From: Synechococcus sp. 8F6
GTDB taxonomy: Bacteria; Cyanobacteriota; Cyanobacteriia; PCC-6307; Cyanobiaceae
Length of the DNA stretch: 64,000 nucleotides
Direction of reading: 5' to 3'
Assembly (NCBI RefSeq): GCF_002252665.1
Contig: NZ_NQKZ01000004.1
Location: 1-64,000, forward strand
Part shown: in pieces, positions 13,358 to 21,973 of the stretch
Position numbering within the stretch: the stretch's first letter is position 1
Layout of the letters: each line of letters begins with the position of its first letter
Program-made: the position numbers and the translations under genes
The notes under the pieces: model-generated
What the model saw: only the letters and a program-made list of their open reading frames with translations
Told to the model about the DNA's origin: nothing
Databases searched by the model: none

Positions 13358-14446
13358 ATGCGCCTGAGCCTGCGCCGGTTTCCGCTCACCAAGGCTGTGC
13401 CCCTGGCCATCAGCCGCGGCACCACAGCGGCTGTGGAGCACCTGCTGGTGAGCCTCGAGCACGACGGGCTCACAGGCATCGGTGAGACCGGCGGCTTCGA
13501 CACCGGCCATCGCCACTACGCCACCGACGCCGTTGCGGCGGAGCTCGAAGCCCTGGCCCCCCAGCTGGGAGCCCTGGCGCCGGAGCCGCTCCAGGCCCTG
13601 GAACCACTGCTGGCTGGCCTCAGCCCGCCGGCGCGCTGCGGCCTCGATCTGGCCCTGCACGACTGGTGGGGCCAACGGCTGGGGCAACCGCTGTGGCGGC
13701 TCTGGGGCCTGGATCCGGGAGCCCGTGTCGCCACCAGCGTGACCCTCGGCTTAGGCCCCCCCGAGGCTGTGCTGGCGCGGCTCGAGTGCTGGTGGCTGCA
13801 GCTTCCCGCCACCCGCATCAAGCTCAAGCTCGGCAGCCCCGAGGGGGTGGCCCACGACCTGGTGCTGCTGGAGGCCGTGGCTGCTGCCCTCGAGCAGCGG
13901 CGCCAGAGCACCGGCGTGGCCTGCGAGCTGCAGGTGGATGCCAACGGCGGTTGGGATCTGGGCACGGCCCGGGCCATGCTCGTGCCCCTCGAGCGGGCTG
14001 GGGTGGTGCTGCTGGAGCAGCCCCTGGCGCCGCTGCTGGATGCGGAGCTCGACACGGCTGGCTTCGAGGCCCTGGAGCTCGACTGTCCGATGCCCTTGGT
14101 GGCGGATGAGAGCTGTTGGGACCTGGCCGATCTGGTGCGGCTGGCCCCCTACGTGGACGGCATCAACATCAAACTGCTCAAAAGTGGAGGTCTCTCCGAG
14201 GCTTTGCTGATGGCCCAGGCGGCCCGGCGGCTGGGGCTGGGGGTGATGGTCGGCTGCTACTCCGACGCCGCCCTGCTCAATGGCGCCGCCGCCCAGCTGC
14301 TGCCCCTGGTGACCTGGCCCGATCTCGACAGCCACCTCAACCTGGTGGATGACCCCTTTACCGGGTTGGCGCTTCGCGGCGACGTGTTGGTGCCGCCCCC
14401 CGGCCCCGGCCTGGGCATTGGCCTCCGAGGCGATCAGGCATGTTGA
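13358..14446 (+). CDS. enolase-superfamily racemase/dipeptide epimerase (DgcA-like)
   Basis: The 362-residue protein has the capping domain and barrel of the muconate lactonising subgroup. Catalytic and metal positions are visible: Lys-x-Lys in TRIKLKLGSPEG, Asp in LQVDANGGWDLG, Glu in VVLLEQPLAPLL, Asp-Glu in PLVADESCWDLADL, and Lys in INIKLLKSGGLSEALLM. This is the layout of L-Ala-D/L-Glu epimerases. In marine bacteria a related enzyme, DgcA, racemises N-acetyl-D-glutamate made by the DUF1611 protein DgcN. The next gene here is a DUF1611 protein overlapping by 7 bases, so a DgcA role is a good inference, with dipeptide epimerase as the alternative. Confidence 0.85.
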   Translation: MRLSLRRFPLTKAVPLAISRGTTAAVEHLLVSLEHDGLTGIGETGGFDTGHRHYATDAVAAELEALAPQLGALAPEPLQALEPLLAGLSPPARCGLDLALHDWWGQRLGQPLWRLWGLDPGARVATSVTLGLGPPEAVLARLECWWLQLPATRIKLKLGSPEGVAHDLVLLEAVAAALEQRRQSTGVACELQVDANGGWDLGTARAMLVPLERAGVVLLEQPLAPLLDAELDTAGFEALELDCPMPLVADESCWDLADLVRLAPYVDGINIKLLKSGGLSEALLMAQAARRLGLGVMVGCYSDAALLNGAAAQLLPLVTWPDLDSHLNLVDDPFTGLALRGDVLVPPPGPGLGIGLRGDQAC

Positions 14447-15591
14447 GCGCCAGCGCCCCGGTCGTGCTGCTGCAGCATGGCGGCCTCGATGACCTCTCCG
14501 GCAAGACCGGCCTGGCGATGCTGCGCTACCGCTCCGGACCGATCGTGGCGGTGATCGATCCGGCCTTCGCTGGCGCCTCGCTGGAGGCGATCACGGGCAT
14601 CGACCGGGCCGTGCCGGTGGTGGCCGACATGGCGGCGGCCCTGGCCTACGGGCCCGAGGTGGCGGTGGTGGGGCTGGCCCCCTCCGGTGGCCGCTTGCCC
14701 GCCGCCATGCGCGCCGATCTGCTGGCGGGGCTCCAGGCCGGGCTGCACCTGGCCAGTGGCCTGCACAGCCGGTTGGGGGATGATCCGGCCCTGGCGGCGG
14801 CCTGCACCCGCCCCGGCCAGTGGATCTGGGACCTGCGCCAGGAGCCCGAGGCGCTGGAGGTGGCCACGGCGCGGGCGGCGGCTCTTCCTTGCCGGCGGCT
14901 GCTGGCGGTGGGATCCGACATGGCCGTGGGCAAGATGAGCGCCTGCCTGGAGCTGCAGGCCGAGGCTAGGCACCGGGGCCTCGATGCCCGCTTTGTGGGC
15001 ACCGGCCAGGCGGGGATCCTGATCGCCGGATGCGGAGTGGCCCTCGATGCGGTGCGGGTGGATTACGCCGCCGGGGCCGTGGAGGCGGCGGTGCTTCAGG
15101 TGGCCGCCGGGGCCGGGCCCGAGGCCCTGGTGCTGGTGGAGGGGCAGGGGTCGCTCTGCCACCCGGGCTCCACCGCCACCCTGCCGCTGCTGCGCGGCAG
15201 CCAGCCCACCGACCTGCTGCTGGTGCACCGCGCCGGCCAGCGCTTCGTGCGCAGCCGGCCTGGGGCGGCGCCGGTGGCGATTCCACCGCTGCCGGAGCTG
15301 ATCGCGGCGCTGGAGGCCCTGGCGGCCTTGGGCCGGCCCGATGGCCTGCGGCCCCGGGTGCGGGCCGTGGCGCTCAACACCGCCCGGCTCAGCAGCGCAG
15401 AAGCCGATGCCGCTCTCGTGGCCACGGCCGCCGAGACGGGTTTGCCCTGCGCCGATCCGGTGCGGCAGGGGGCGGGTCTGCTGCTGCAGGCCCTCTTGCC
15501 GCAGGGCGCGTTGCAGCAGGGCGGCACAAAAAAGCCGCCTCCACCAGAAGCGGAGACGGCTAGGGCATCAAGGGCGAGCGAGGGGACTTGA
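14440..15591 (+). CDS. DUF1611 family protein (DgcN-like, putative D-glutamate N-acetyltransferase)
   Basis: The 383-residue protein has an N-terminal DUF1611 domain and a C-terminal P-loop-like domain with LLAVGSDMAVGKMSACLELQ and FVGTGQAGILIAGCGVALDA, then LVEGQGSLCHPGSTATLPLL. Known relatives (DgcN) acetylate D-glutamate before racemisation by DgcA. It overlaps the upstream racemase gene by 7 bases, indicating one transcript. The last 20 or so residues (KKPPPPEAETARASRASEG) are encoded by DNA that also forms the terminator and 3' end of an antisense tRNA-His gene, so this tail is unlikely to be functional protein. Confidence 0.82.
   Translation: MLSASAPVVLLQHGGLDDLSGKTGLAMLRYRSGPIVAVIDPAFAGASLEAITGIDRAVPVVADMAAALAYGPEVAVVGLAPSGGRLPAAMRADLLAGLQAGLHLASGLHSRLGDDPALAAACTRPGQWIWDLRQEPEALEVATARAAALPCRRLLAVGSDMAVGKMSACLELQAEARHRGLDARFVGTGQAGILIAGCGVALDAVRVDYAAGAVEAAVLQVAAGAGPEALVLVEGQGSLCHPGSTATLPLLRGSQPTDLLLVHRAGQRFVRSRPGAAPVAIPPLPELIAALEALAALGRPDGLRPRVRAVALNTARLSSAEADAALVATAAETGLPCADPVRQGAGLLLQALLPQGALQQGGTKKPPPPEAETARASRASEGT
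15528..15561 (-). terminator. rho-independent terminator of tRNA-His
   Basis: On the minus strand the arms AGCCGTCTCC and GGAGGCGGCT form a 10-pair stem with a 9-base loop (one mismatch), followed directly by six T. It lies 12 bases beyond the 3' end of the tRNA-His gene, the expected place. The same bases are read on the plus strand as the last codons of the DUF1611 gene. Confidence 0.85.
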
Positions 15592-15646
15592 ACCCCCGAA
15601 TGGCGGCGCCACAAGCCGCTGCCTTAACCACTTGGCGACGCCCGCC
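15573..15646 (-). tRNA. tRNA-His (GTG anticodon)
   Basis: The cloverleaf is complete: acceptor GCGGGCG with CGCTCGC, D arm GCCAAGTGGTTAAGGC, anticodon arm with loop TTGTGGC (anticodon GTG), and T arm with GGGGGTTCAAGTCCCC. The extra 5' G (position -1) opposite C73, which identifies tRNA-His, is encoded. CCA is not encoded. The gene is antisense to the last 19 bases of the DUF1611 gene. Confidence 0.96.
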
Positions 15647-19381: not shown

Positions 19382-20664
19382 TCTGGACCGTTCTGCGCCG
19401 GAGGGTCACTCCCCAGCAGATGGCCTACCAAATAGAGGGAGCCCGCCACGATCAGCCGCGGGGCTGCTGCGGCTGTCGCTGCGGCTGTTAGGGCGCTGGT
19501 GAGATCCGGCGCCGTCTCCAGCTGATCCACCAGCGCCGCTCCTCGGTCGGTGTGGGCGGCGAGGGCGCTGCTGAGGCTGGTGGCGCTCCAGCTGGCGTGG
19601 CCCGGCACCGGCACAATCCAGGCGCGGTCGTGGGGGGCCAGCAGCGCCTCGACGATGGCCGGCCCCTGCTTGTTGGCCAGCATCCCCAGCACCCAGTGGC
19701 GGGGGCCGGCGGCCAGGCCGTGGCGCTGCGGGTGGGCATCCAGCTCGCTGCGCAGGGCGCGGGCGGCGGGCAGGTTGTGGGCTCCGTCGAGCAGCAGGGG
19801 CTGGCCTCGCCAAATCAGCTGTTGCAGCCGGCCGGGCCAGCGGGCCGCCGCAAACCCCTGACGGATATCGGACTCGCTGATCGGCCAGCCCCGCTCCACC
19901 AGGGCCCGCAGCATCCCCAGGGCTACGGCACCGTTGCTCGCCTGCACGGCCCCTGGCAGCCCGAGGGGCCAACGCTCCAGATCGAGTGGCTCCAGCCAGC
20001 GCAGCTCGGCCCCCACCGCCTCGGCCCGGGCGTTCAACACCGCGGCCACCTCCGGGCTCTGGGGCGCGCTGACGGCCACGGCACCCGGCTGGAGCACGCC
20101 CGCTTTTTCGGCGGCAATGTTGGCTGAATCCGGCCCCAGAATCTCGGCGTGGTCGAGCCCCACCGAGGCAAAGCCGATCACGGGCCGGTGGGGATGGCAG
20201 GTGGTGGCATCGAGCCGGCCCCCCAGTCCCACCTCCAGCACCACCAGCTCCAGCTCAGCTTCCGCGAAGGCCAGAAAGGCCGCGGCGGTGACCAGCTCAA
20301 ACGGCGTGAGCTGGTGGCGTTGGGCGACCGGCGTGGCGGTTTGCAGGTGGCGGCGCAGGGCTGGCGTGGCGATCGGGGTGTCGCCCAGCCGGATGCGCTC
20401 GGTCCAGCTCACCAGGTGGGGCGAGGTGTAGAGGCCGGCGCGGATGCCGGCGGCCAGCAGCGCCTGGTGCACGAGGGTGCAGATCGAGCCCTTGCCGTTG
20501 GTGCCGGCCACCTGCACGGCGGCGAAGCGACGCTCGGGATGGCCCAGCTCGGCCAGGGCGGCCTGCAGGCGATCGAGCCCCAGGTCGACGCCGCGGCGGC
20601 TGAAGGGCTCGATCAGGTCGGCGAAGCTGTCGGGCTCAGCGGCCAAGGCTGTTTTAGCAACCAA
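19378..20664 (-). CDS. folC: folylpolyglutamate / dihydrofolate synthase
   Basis: FolC adds glutamate to folates and, in the bifunctional form, to dihydropteroate. The P-loop is VQVAGTNGKGSICTLVHQAL, followed by AGLYTSPHLVSWTERIRLG, LTPFELVTAAAFLAFAEA, VLEVGLGGRLDATTC, and the C-terminal Mur-ligase domain with LLLDGAHNLPAARALRSEL. Length (428) is normal. The gene lies 3' of argD with an 11-base overlap and its stop meets the start of the pentapeptide gene, so all three are probably one transcript. Confidence 0.94.
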   Translation of the reverse strand: MVAKTALAAEPDSFADLIEPFSRRGVDLGLDRLQAALAELGHPERRFAAVQVAGTNGKGSICTLVHQALLAAGIRAGLYTSPHLVSWTERIRLGDTPIATPALRRHLQTATPVAQRHQLTPFELVTAAAFLAFAEAELELVVLEVGLGGRLDATTCHPHRPVIGFASVGLDHAEILGPDSANIAAEKAGVLQPGAVAVSAPQSPEVAAVLNARAEAVGAELRWLEPLDLERWPLGLPGAVQASNGAVALGMLRALVERGWPISESDIRQGFAAARWPGRLQQLIWRGQPLLLDGAHNLPAARALRSELDAHPQRHGLAAGPRHWVLGMLANKQGPAIVEALLAPHDRAWIVPVPGHASWSATSLSSALAAHTDRGAALVDQLETAPDLTSALTAAATAAAAPRLIVAGSLYLVGHLLGSDPPAQNGPE

Positions 20665-21865
20665 GGCTGGTGAGGGCCCGCTCGAGGCGATCCACCGCCA
20701 GGCGCAGGTGGCGGGGCTGGATCACCAGCGGCGGCACGAAGCGCACCACTTGGGGTCCGGCGGGGACCAGCAGCAGGCCCTGCTCCATCGCGGCCATGAC
20801 GATTTCGGGGGCGCTCGGGGCCTCGGCACGCAGCACCAGGCCCTGCAGCAGCCCCCAGCCGCGCACCCCCTCCAGCAGGGTGGGGTGGCGGCTTACCAGC
20901 TCGGCCAGCAGCTCCTGCAGCAGTTCTCCCATCCGCTGCACGTGGCTGACCAGCTTGCGGCGCTCGAGTTCAGCCAGCACCGTGAGGCCGGCCCGGCAGG
21001 CGAAGGGGTTGCCGCCGAAGGTGCTGGCGTGCTCGCCGGGGCGGAAGTGATCTGCCTTCGCCTTCACCGCTAGGGCGCCGATCGGGATGCCGCCGCCCAG
21101 CCCCTTGGCCAGGGTGATCGCATCGGGCTCCACGCCCAGCTGCTCGTAGCCCCAGAGCTGGCCGCTGCGGCCGACGCCGATCTGCACCTCGTCGAAGATC
21201 AGCAGGATGTTGTGGGCGTCGCAGAGCTCCCGCACCCGCTGGAAGAAGGCGCGGTTGCCCGGGTGCACACCGCCCTCGCCCTGGATCGGCTCCAGCAGCA
21301 CGGCCGCCACCCGCGGACCCTGCGCCTCGCTGCTGGCCAGCAGGGTTTCAAAGGCGGCGGTGTCGTTGTAGGGGAAGTAGCGGAAGCCCTGCACCATCGG
21401 CTCAAAGCCCTGGTGGTATTTGGGCTGGCCGGTGGCGGTGACGGCCGCCAGGGTGCGGCCGTGGAAACTGGCCTGGGCGGTAAGGATCAGGGGGCTGTGC
21501 TCGCCGCCGGGAATGCCGCCCGCGGTGTTGATGCCGCGGACCGTGTTGCCGTGCTTGCGCGCCAATTTGATGGCGGCCTCATTGGCCTCAGCGCCTGAGT
21601 TGCAGAAGAACACCCGATCCATGCAGCTGCTGTCGGTGATCGCCGCCGCCAGCTCCTCCTGCTCAGGAATGCGGTACAGATTGGACACATGCTGGAGCTT
21701 GCCCAGCTGCCGGCTCAGGGCCCGCTTCATCCGCCCGTCGCTGTGGCCGAGGGTGCAGACCGCGATGCCGGCCACGCAGTCGAGGTAGCGCTTGCCGCTG
21801 CTGTCCCACACCCACACACCCCGGCCCCGGGTGAGGCTGATCGGGAAGCGGGCATAGGTGTCCAT
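20654..21865 (-). CDS. argD: acetylornithine aminotransferase
   Basis: This PLP enzyme converts N-acetylglutamate semialdehyde to N-acetylornithine in arginine synthesis. Visible motifs are GVWVWDSSGKRYLDCVAGIA, CNSGAEANEAAIKLARK, the PLP aspartate in ILLIFDEVQIGVGRSG, the Schiff-base lysine in AITLAKGLGGGIPIGAL, and HASTFGGNPFACRAGL. I set the start at the ATG at 21863-21865 (MDTYARFPISL); the frame stays open further upstream only because it runs through the tRNA-Leu gene. Lys in TLAKGLGGG is intact, so the enzyme should be active. Confidence 0.95.
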   Translation of the reverse strand: MDTYARFPISLTRGRGVWVWDSSGKRYLDCVAGIAVCTLGHSDGRMKRALSRQLGKLQHVSNLYRIPEQEELAAAITDSSCMDRVFFCNSGAEANEAAIKLARKHGNTVRGINTAGGIPGGEHSPLILTAQASFHGRTLAAVTATGQPKYHQGFEPMVQGFRYFPYNDTAAFETLLASSEAQGPRVAAVLLEPIQGEGGVHPGNRAFFQRVRELCDAHNILLIFDEVQIGVGRSGQLWGYEQLGVEPDAITLAKGLGGGIPIGALAVKAKADHFRPGEHASTFGGNPFACRAGLTVLAELERRKLVSHVQRMGELLQELLAELVSRHPTLLEGVRGWGLLQGLVLRAEAPSAPEIVMAAMEQGLLLVPAGPQVVRFVPPLVIQPRHLRLAVDRLERALTSLGC

Positions 21866-21891
21866 CACTGCTGATGTGGACACCGGCGAGA

Positions 21892-21973
21892 TGGGAGCGG
21901 TGGGACTCGAACCCACATGCCCGAAGGCGCTCGATTTTGAGTCGAGTCCGTCTACCAATTCCGGCACGCTCCC
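21892..21973 (-). tRNA. tRNA-Leu (CAA anticodon)
   Basis: A class II tRNA with acceptor GGGAGCG/CGCTCCC, D arm with AATTGGTAGACGG, anticodon stem CTCGA/TCGAG closing loop CTCAAAA (anticodon CAA), long variable arm GCC-TTCG-GGC, and T arm GTGGGTTCGAGTCCCAC. CCA is not encoded. It lies between murA and argD on the same strand, 26 bases before argD. Confidence 0.96.

Follow-up and report, generated by a model that had tools for sequence, protein, structure and literature searches.

A co-inherited racemase and DUF1611 gene pair in a picocyanobacterium, a candidate cyanobacterial branch of the DgcN-DgcA module

Two overlapping genes at positions 13,358 to 15,591 of a stretch of DNA from Synechococcus sp. 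8F6 (64,000 nucleotides, referred to as a whole as the window) encode an enolase-superfamily racemase/epimerase, here called A, and a DUF1611 protein, here called N. Across the cyanobacteria sampled the two genes are nearly always inherited together, in two genera they have been deleted together, and their products carry the catalytic motifs (A) and the fold (N) of the enzymes of the DgcN-DgcA pathway, which reportedly has its defining paper in Yu et al. 2023 and was described there for marine Proteobacteria and halophilic archaea. The best available reading, to which we give an even chance of being correct, is that the pair converts D-glutamate into L-glutamate through an acetylated intermediate. 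The features at this place are as follows.

13358-14446, forward strand: gene A, 362 residues, ATG start, intact; enolase-superfamily racemase/epimerase of DgcA or dipeptide-epimerase type
14440-15591, forward strand: gene N, 383 residues, ATG start, full-length; DgcN-like DUF1611 protein with an N-terminal Rossmann-like and a C-terminal P-loop domain
15572-15645, reverse strand: gene for a histidine transfer RNA, tRNA-His(GTG), found by ARAGORN; context, outside the proposed mechanism

Gene pair, co-inheritance and joint loss

A first-pass annotation, made from the DNA letters alone, had described an enolase-superfamily gene overlapping a DUF1611 gene by 7 bases, and both the open reading frames and the Pfam domains agree with this. 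A matches MR_MLE_N (37.7 bits) and MR_MLE_C (89.9 bits), both above the curated cut-offs, and N matches DUF1611_N (PF17396; 88.7 bits, cut-off 22.6) and DUF1611_C (PF07755; 215.7 bits, cut-off 25). The tRNA gene that the same annotation placed on the other strand after N is that of tRNA-His, and it covers the final 20 bases of N (15572-15591), an overlap that went unmentioned there. The DNA had also been ascribed to a picocyanobacterium, and the closest named relatives among the matches listed do include Cyanobium and Synechococcus. Purifying selection acts on both genes, the ratio of nonsynonymous to synonymous substitution rates (dN/dS) against three relatives being 0.17-0.30 for A and 0.23-0.25 for N.

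A comparison of the occurrence of both families across cyanobacterial genomes, which the first-pass annotation had proposed, reveals an essentially complete coupling in a sample of 292 genomes of the phylum. Counted as full-length matches (N accepted to E 2.5e-52, A to E 1.2e-33), A is present in 81 of the 81 genomes with an N of the type that accompanies A (A-type N) and occurs without N in a single genome, G053 (Fisher p ~2e-72, uncorrected for shared ancestry). Excluded from these counts are, for DUF1611, a remnant in G266, weak hits in G131, G172 and six genomes of family f31, an extra weak hit in G105 and seven places of a second subfamily, and, for A, the remnant in G266 (E 1e-45, covering 4-129 of 362 residues), a fragment in G139 and all weaker hits; G211, which carries second-subfamily DUF1611 only, counts as lacking A-type N, and G174, where N is split between frames, counts as having it. 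The two genes are adjacent in 70 of the 81 genomes, within 2.4 kb of each other in 5 and apart in 6, and thus A and N are kept together even when unlinked. The order among the adjacent pairs is A-N in 65 cases and N-A in 5, the latter all from one family outside the class. One genome shows two N matches of similar score near opposite ends of a contig of ~3 Mb (G336:C1, 16750-17808 and 2981608-2982663), either an assembly overlap or a true duplication.

Loss of the genes is joint as well. Two picocyanobacterial genera still carry remnants of the pair, left by deletions that differ: in one of them (G266, L019:5251-6051) an in-frame fusion joins the beginning of A to the final part of N, and in the other (G139, L020:5575-5842) short ends of both genes are retained.

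The pair occurs across the class and in other named groups and is not special to this picocyanobacterium. The family search with N also matches Synechococcus elongatus, a named control genome, and among the best 80 of at least 586 confirmed N relatives in named genomes an A-like gene lies within the fetched stretch in 66 (65 in the order A-N, 1 in the order N-A). These pair loci, many of them metagenome-assembled, include Cyanobium, Synechococcus, Nostoc, Microcystis, Planctomycetota, Bacteroidota, Rhodobacteraceae and a Melainabacterium.

Structure, active site and phylogeny

N finds two solved structures in the PDB by sequence, 2obn (E 4e-101) and 7xrj (E 2e-41). Its predicted model (predicted local distance difference test score, pLDDT, 90.6) has the same full-length fold as the solved DgcN, 7xrj (Z 37.6, root-mean-square deviation 2.8, 330 residues, 34% identity), and aligns with 2obn at Z 48.0 and 52-53% identity. 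The latter is Ava_3511 of Anabaena variabilis, a cyanobacterial homologue of N that was deposited without a function; the DUF1611 family to which it belongs is now tied to a racemase partner, which provides a candidate function for 2obn. An alignment of 15 DUF1611 proteins (cyanobacterial N, annotated DgcN, haloarchaeal N and the second subfamily) has 25 invariant columns, and all invariant residues are found in N, including K22, H109, R133, D160, K165, T188, Q190, D203, E215, E234 and Q236. The solved homologues align to N only up to about residue 353-355, leaving residues ~356-383 without a counterpart, and the pLDDT of the model falls below 50 for residues 371-383; this C-terminal tail is therefore probably an extension peculiar to the lineage that runs into the tRNA region.

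The first-pass annotation had credited A with the expected catalytic residues, and all those examined are indeed present in the alignment of A proteins from which our residue numbers, in the numbering of the window's protein, are counted: R20, K155, K157, D194, E220, D250, K272, D322 and D324. Following the dipeptide-epimerase literature, we take K155 and K157 to be the KxK motif, D194, E220 and D250 to be the metal ligands and D322 and D324 to be the DxD motif; R20 presumably pairs with the glutamate side chain and DxD with the N-terminal ammonium of the dipeptide, as in dipeptide epimerases. The two-lysine active site and the three metal ligands align with those of four annotated DgcAs (L002-L005), and the arginine equivalent to R20 is absent from two haloarchaeal proteins in the same alignment. 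As the active-site residues of A are common to all four annotated DgcAs and to an annotated YcjG (L047), these motifs cannot separate N-acetyl-D-glutamate from L-Ala-D-Glu as the substrate. DxD and the other active-site residues, tried as a test between DgcA and dipeptide epimerases, failed for the reason that annotated DgcAs retain the same residues. The top PDB matches of A are 3iji (named as a muconate cycloisomerase), 3jva (a dipeptide epimerase) and 1jpd (an L-Ala-D/L-Glu epimerase), and the PDB entries nearest to the Ruegeria DgcA are 4gfi and the E. coli L-Ala-D/L-Glu epimerase. The DgcA label is hard to tell from that of a dipeptide epimerase by sequence, which bears on gene counts in ocean metagenomes.

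Phylogenetic trees of hand-picked proteins (49 N and 48 A, only 7 of the A unpartnered; reading frames longer than 400 residues trimmed to their last 370-375 residues; FastTree local supports; midpoint-rooted) are congruent for the two families (Mantel r 0.92 over 41 pairs, a value reached in none of 5000 permutations). Annotated DgcN and the N of cyanobacteria and Bacteroidota are sister groups in the N tree (support 0.99). Cyanobacterial A belongs, in the A tree, to a clade of 32 members (support 0.991), all of which are partnered by N in the sample, and YcjG nests inside the annotated DgcAs (support 0.947), so that tree placement also failed as a test between DgcA and dipeptide epimerases. 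The pair seems to travel as a unit, since both trees place the same two metagenome-assembled genomes (MAGs) of Rhodobacteraceae with Bacteroidota and the same deltaproteobacterial MAG among the cyanobacteria; mis-binning of those MAGs is an alternative.

Proposed route and competing readings

The DgcN-DgcA pathway consists of the same two families, adjacent and on one strand, with the same catalytic residues in A and the same fold in N. Its two steps, catalysed by D-glutamate N-acetyltransferase (DgcN) and N-acetyl-D-glutamate racemase (DgcA), are those assigned EC 2.3.1.312 and EC 5.1.1.25 in the Enzyme Commission (EC) system (PMC11747546). One paper, whose main text does not contain the stem 'cyanobacteri', presents dgcN as the key gene of a route, irreversible and costly, that racemises acidic D-amino acids as well as the amides of these and occurs in 32 class-level clades (PMC12363236), and in Shewanella psychrophila WP2 DgcN-DgcA is very likely the main D-glutamate route as judged from transcript levels (PMC10845958). 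By analogy with these relatives, N would carry out an acetyl transfer and A a racemisation. In the route that we propose, D-glutamate from peptidoglycan turnover or uptake would receive on its amino group, through N, the acetyl group of acetyl-coenzyme A (acetyl-CoA); the two lysines of A would then take the alpha proton off N-acetyl-D-glutamate and reprotonate it to N-acetyl-L-glutamate, which could enter the arginine pathway or be deacetylated to L-glutamate. Because D-glutamate would first be acetylated at the cost of acetyl-CoA, the conversion would be pulled one way. That D-glutamate is the physiological substrate and arginine the outlet is our guess. The genome contains an ArgJ homologue, matches to M20 hydrolases, which are candidate deacetylases, and a homologue of NlpC/P60 endopeptidases on a different contig from the pair. 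With such a route, D-glutamate recovery can be tested for in much of the cyanobacteria and no longer in marine heterotrophs only. Titles and abstract openings of the ornithine-racemase and D-glutamate/Synechococcus literature listed hold nothing on such a pair, beyond which we make no claim, and a term search for DUF1611 together with dipeptide epimerase returned no literature match.

Several observations count against the D-glutamate reading or set the pair apart from annotated DgcN-DgcA. The first-pass annotation had called A and N homologues of DgcA and DgcN, which agrees with the full-length match of N to 7xrj and with DgcA (NF042940) and DgcN (NF041892) being the nearest NCBIfam models; the scores, however, are 161.5 bits for A and 216.6 bits for N, below the equivalog cut-offs of 400 and 480, and therefore neither protein is certified as DgcA or DgcN by the curated rule (the score of A against the YcjG model, NF011708, is likewise below the cut-off, 111.6 against 343 bits). 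The window's sequences are 31-39% identical to the annotated pairs, their order is A-N and not N-A as in those pairs, and the clade of cyanobacterial A is separate from the one formed by annotated DgcA and YcjG (support 1.0). A keeps R20 and the DxD motif typical of L-Ala-D/L-Glu epimerases, although annotated DgcAs keep both. The P-loop domain of N resembles that of ligases dependent on adenosine triphosphate (ATP), such as BioD and cobyrinate diamide synthase, which leaves some doubt as to whether this branch uses acetyl-CoA. A transporter or a D-amino-acid transaminase adjoins three of the four annotated proteobacterial DgcN-DgcA pairs opened, whereas by eye neither of these, nor a deacetylase, was recognised directly beside the cyanobacterial pairs. 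For 14 of the best 80 named loci, several of them cyanobacterial and two truncated immediately ahead of N, the fetched stretch, to which the search for A in those genomes was confined, contains no A-like gene. On balance, the pair is real, old and conserved, and we give an even chance to its being a module of the DgcN-DgcA kind, in a branch found in cyanobacteria, that acts on D-glutamate.

The alternative that survives best, although somewhat unlikely, is that A works in peptidoglycan recycling as an L-Ala-D/L-Glu dipeptide epimerase, in the manner of YcjG and YkfB. NlpC/P60 would free L-Ala-D-Glu, A would turn it into L-Ala-L-Glu and a dipeptidase would finish the process, while N would transfer an acyl group, in a related reaction, to these peptides or to free D-glutamate. 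A belongs to the enolase-superfamily subgroup of YcjG/YkfB with the same catalytic and DxD residues, its matches to solved dipeptide epimerases, its R20 and the position of YcjG among the annotated DgcAs all suit this alternative, and one haloarchaeal locus consists of NlpC/P60, DUF1611 and a dipeptide epimerase. The accepted substrates of endopeptidases of this type are peptides whose N-terminal L-Ala is free, cleavage of which leaves L-Ala-gamma-D-Glu (PMC2954226). A role on L-Ala-D-Glu would predict co-occurrence of A with the endopeptidase; across the 292 genomes the endopeptidase appears uncoupled from A, whereas N is coupled to it. When the endopeptidase is counted at E <= 2.5e-39 (132 of the 146 genomes with a match), the pair is missing in 62 of the 132 endopeptidase genomes, and the endopeptidase is missing in 6 of the 76 pair genomes of the class and in all 5 pair genomes outside it. 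It is therefore favoured, short of proof, that A works on the product of N. Reading A as a dipeptide epimerase also leaves N without a clear role. Moreover, the two annotated murein-recycling loci read (L047, ycjG-mpaA-mppA, and L128, NlpC/P60 next to a dipeptide epimerase) tie such epimerases to murein peptidases with no annotated DUF1611 in the fetched stretches, and cyanobacterial A lies outside the YcjG clade.

Quite unlikely is a second alternative, in which the same acyl-gated racemisation operates on another acidic or amide D-amino acid (D-Asp, D-Gln or D-Asn) or with an acyl group other than acetyl. In its favour, the motifs of cyanobacterial A are mostly DANGGW and DLDSHLNL and differ from the DANE or DPNE and DLDGP of annotated DgcA, but R20, the residue presumed to contact the glutamate side chain, is kept in 22 of the 22 A proteins of the phylum in the alignment (that of the window included). 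It is highly improbable that N, instead of being an acetyltransferase, works with ATP like enzymes of the BioD/CobB type, for instance by forming an N-carboxy or N-acyl bond on a D-amino acid before A racemises it: the P-loop domain does align with BioD, cobyrinate a,c-diamide synthase and CTP synthetase (Z 12-13 over ~170-200 residues), but over its full length N matches the N-acetyltransferase DgcN much more closely (Z 37.6, 330 residues) and a shared P-loop fold is by itself no proof of function.

Gene A may have a counterpart in S. elongatus PCC 7942, where two laboratory wild-type lines have mutations, W98* and G27R respectively, in gene 2373, which is annotated as an L-Ala-D/L-Glu epimerase (PMC13273366, Table 2). 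Gene 2373 is a plausible candidate orthologue of A, W98 and G27 fitting the protein of locus L021 only if the annotated start is 15 residues downstream of the start chosen here, at a CTG codon. If gene 2373 is A, then A is possibly dispensable in culture.

Neighbouring genes and a second DUF1611 module

The genes around the pair have a fixed order in its own family: all 12 family loci that carry it (L007-L018) read miaB (reverse), A, N, DUF4359, amidohydrolase and flavin adenine dinucleotide (FAD) oxidase, and in all 14 loci L007-L020 tRNA-His immediately follows N or what is left of it; in L010 and L016, miaB and A are ~1.9 kb apart. In the window, MiaB, Ddl, FtsZ and ArgD each score above at least one NCBIfam cut-off:

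20654-21967: ArgD (TIGR00707, 473 bits, cut-off 410)

In a locus of another family (L021), miaB and ddl are still divergent from the pair, and the amidohydrolase and the oxidase were not found beside it in the fetched stretch. The amidohydrolase and the FAD-linked oxidase downstream had been thought in the first-pass annotation to extend the route, a proposal that we reject. Among 151 genomes of the family the amidohydrolase is present in 127, 66 of which lack N, and 9 of the 70 genomes with N show no amidohydrolase match (some genomes being incomplete; two partial N, in G346 and G383, and some partial amidohydrolases are taken as present). For this reason the amidohydrolase is probably a separate unit, and with it probably the oxidase, which was not searched for separately. 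Both genes, together with tRNA-His and DUF4359, are retained beside the two deletion remnants. The window contains no NtcA-type site (GTA-N8-TAC), and no further linked enzyme was recognised by eye, without a family scan, in 16 loci outside the picocyanobacteria, where the neighbours are variable.

The second DUF1611 subfamily, found in 7 of the 292 phylum genomes, also has a racemase next to it, which in all seven is a directly downstream gene of the ornithine-racemase (Orr) type (L027-L033), unrelated to A. The four of these genes that were scanned match PF01168 and NF040742 (289-398 bits, cut-off 480), and Orr-like genes at E <= 3.2e-80 occur only in those seven genomes of the sample. The family sample, which shares three second-subfamily genomes with the phylum sample, has the racemase on the same strand and within 65 bases downstream in 25 of 25 second-subfamily places (one racemase being partial). 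Its only other Orr-like match is a fragment in the window's own genome (G000:C84:18733-18963), 76 residues at 70% identity and without a DUF1611 partner, which is either what remains of the second module or a piece cut short by the edge of the contig. Around one of the second-subfamily matches (L029, G175:C2) an apparent open frame of 24,637 residues is probably an artefact of reading through runs of unknown bases, of which the 10-kb stretch contains 5,000.

On plasmids, a racemase/epimerase lies beside DUF1611 in 12 of the 14 records opened, nine of the enolase type and three of the pyridoxal phosphate (PLP) type. The latter, two from Vibrio and one from Aliiroseovarius whose partner is named alanine racemase, all have a 4-base overlap (L133, L134, L135), and the DUF1611s that have a PLP partner group in a single clade of 8 (support 1.0). 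The pairing is not a universal rule, since the plasmid records of Vibrio nigripulchritudo and Sinorhizobium meliloti, whose gene tables are incomplete, annotate no racemase beside DUF1611. We tentatively propose, with clearly less than even confidence, that DUF1611 is a general family of racemase-partner acyltransferases, with subfamilies each locked to an unrelated racemase (the enolase-superfamily A or the fold-III PLP enzyme of Orr type); both would drive racemisation in one direction by acylating a D-amino acid, and one or both would serve cyanobacteria for cell-wall D-amino acids. In this way the strict pairing of the second subfamily with an unrelated racemase suggests, as a simple hypothesis, what an entire domain without an assigned function may do. 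On two haloarchaeal plasmids (L137 and L138), a D-aminoacylase, DUF1611 and one or two dipeptide epimerases are found together, gene sets that, as far as gene content can indicate, would fit an N-acyl-D-amino-acid chemistry.

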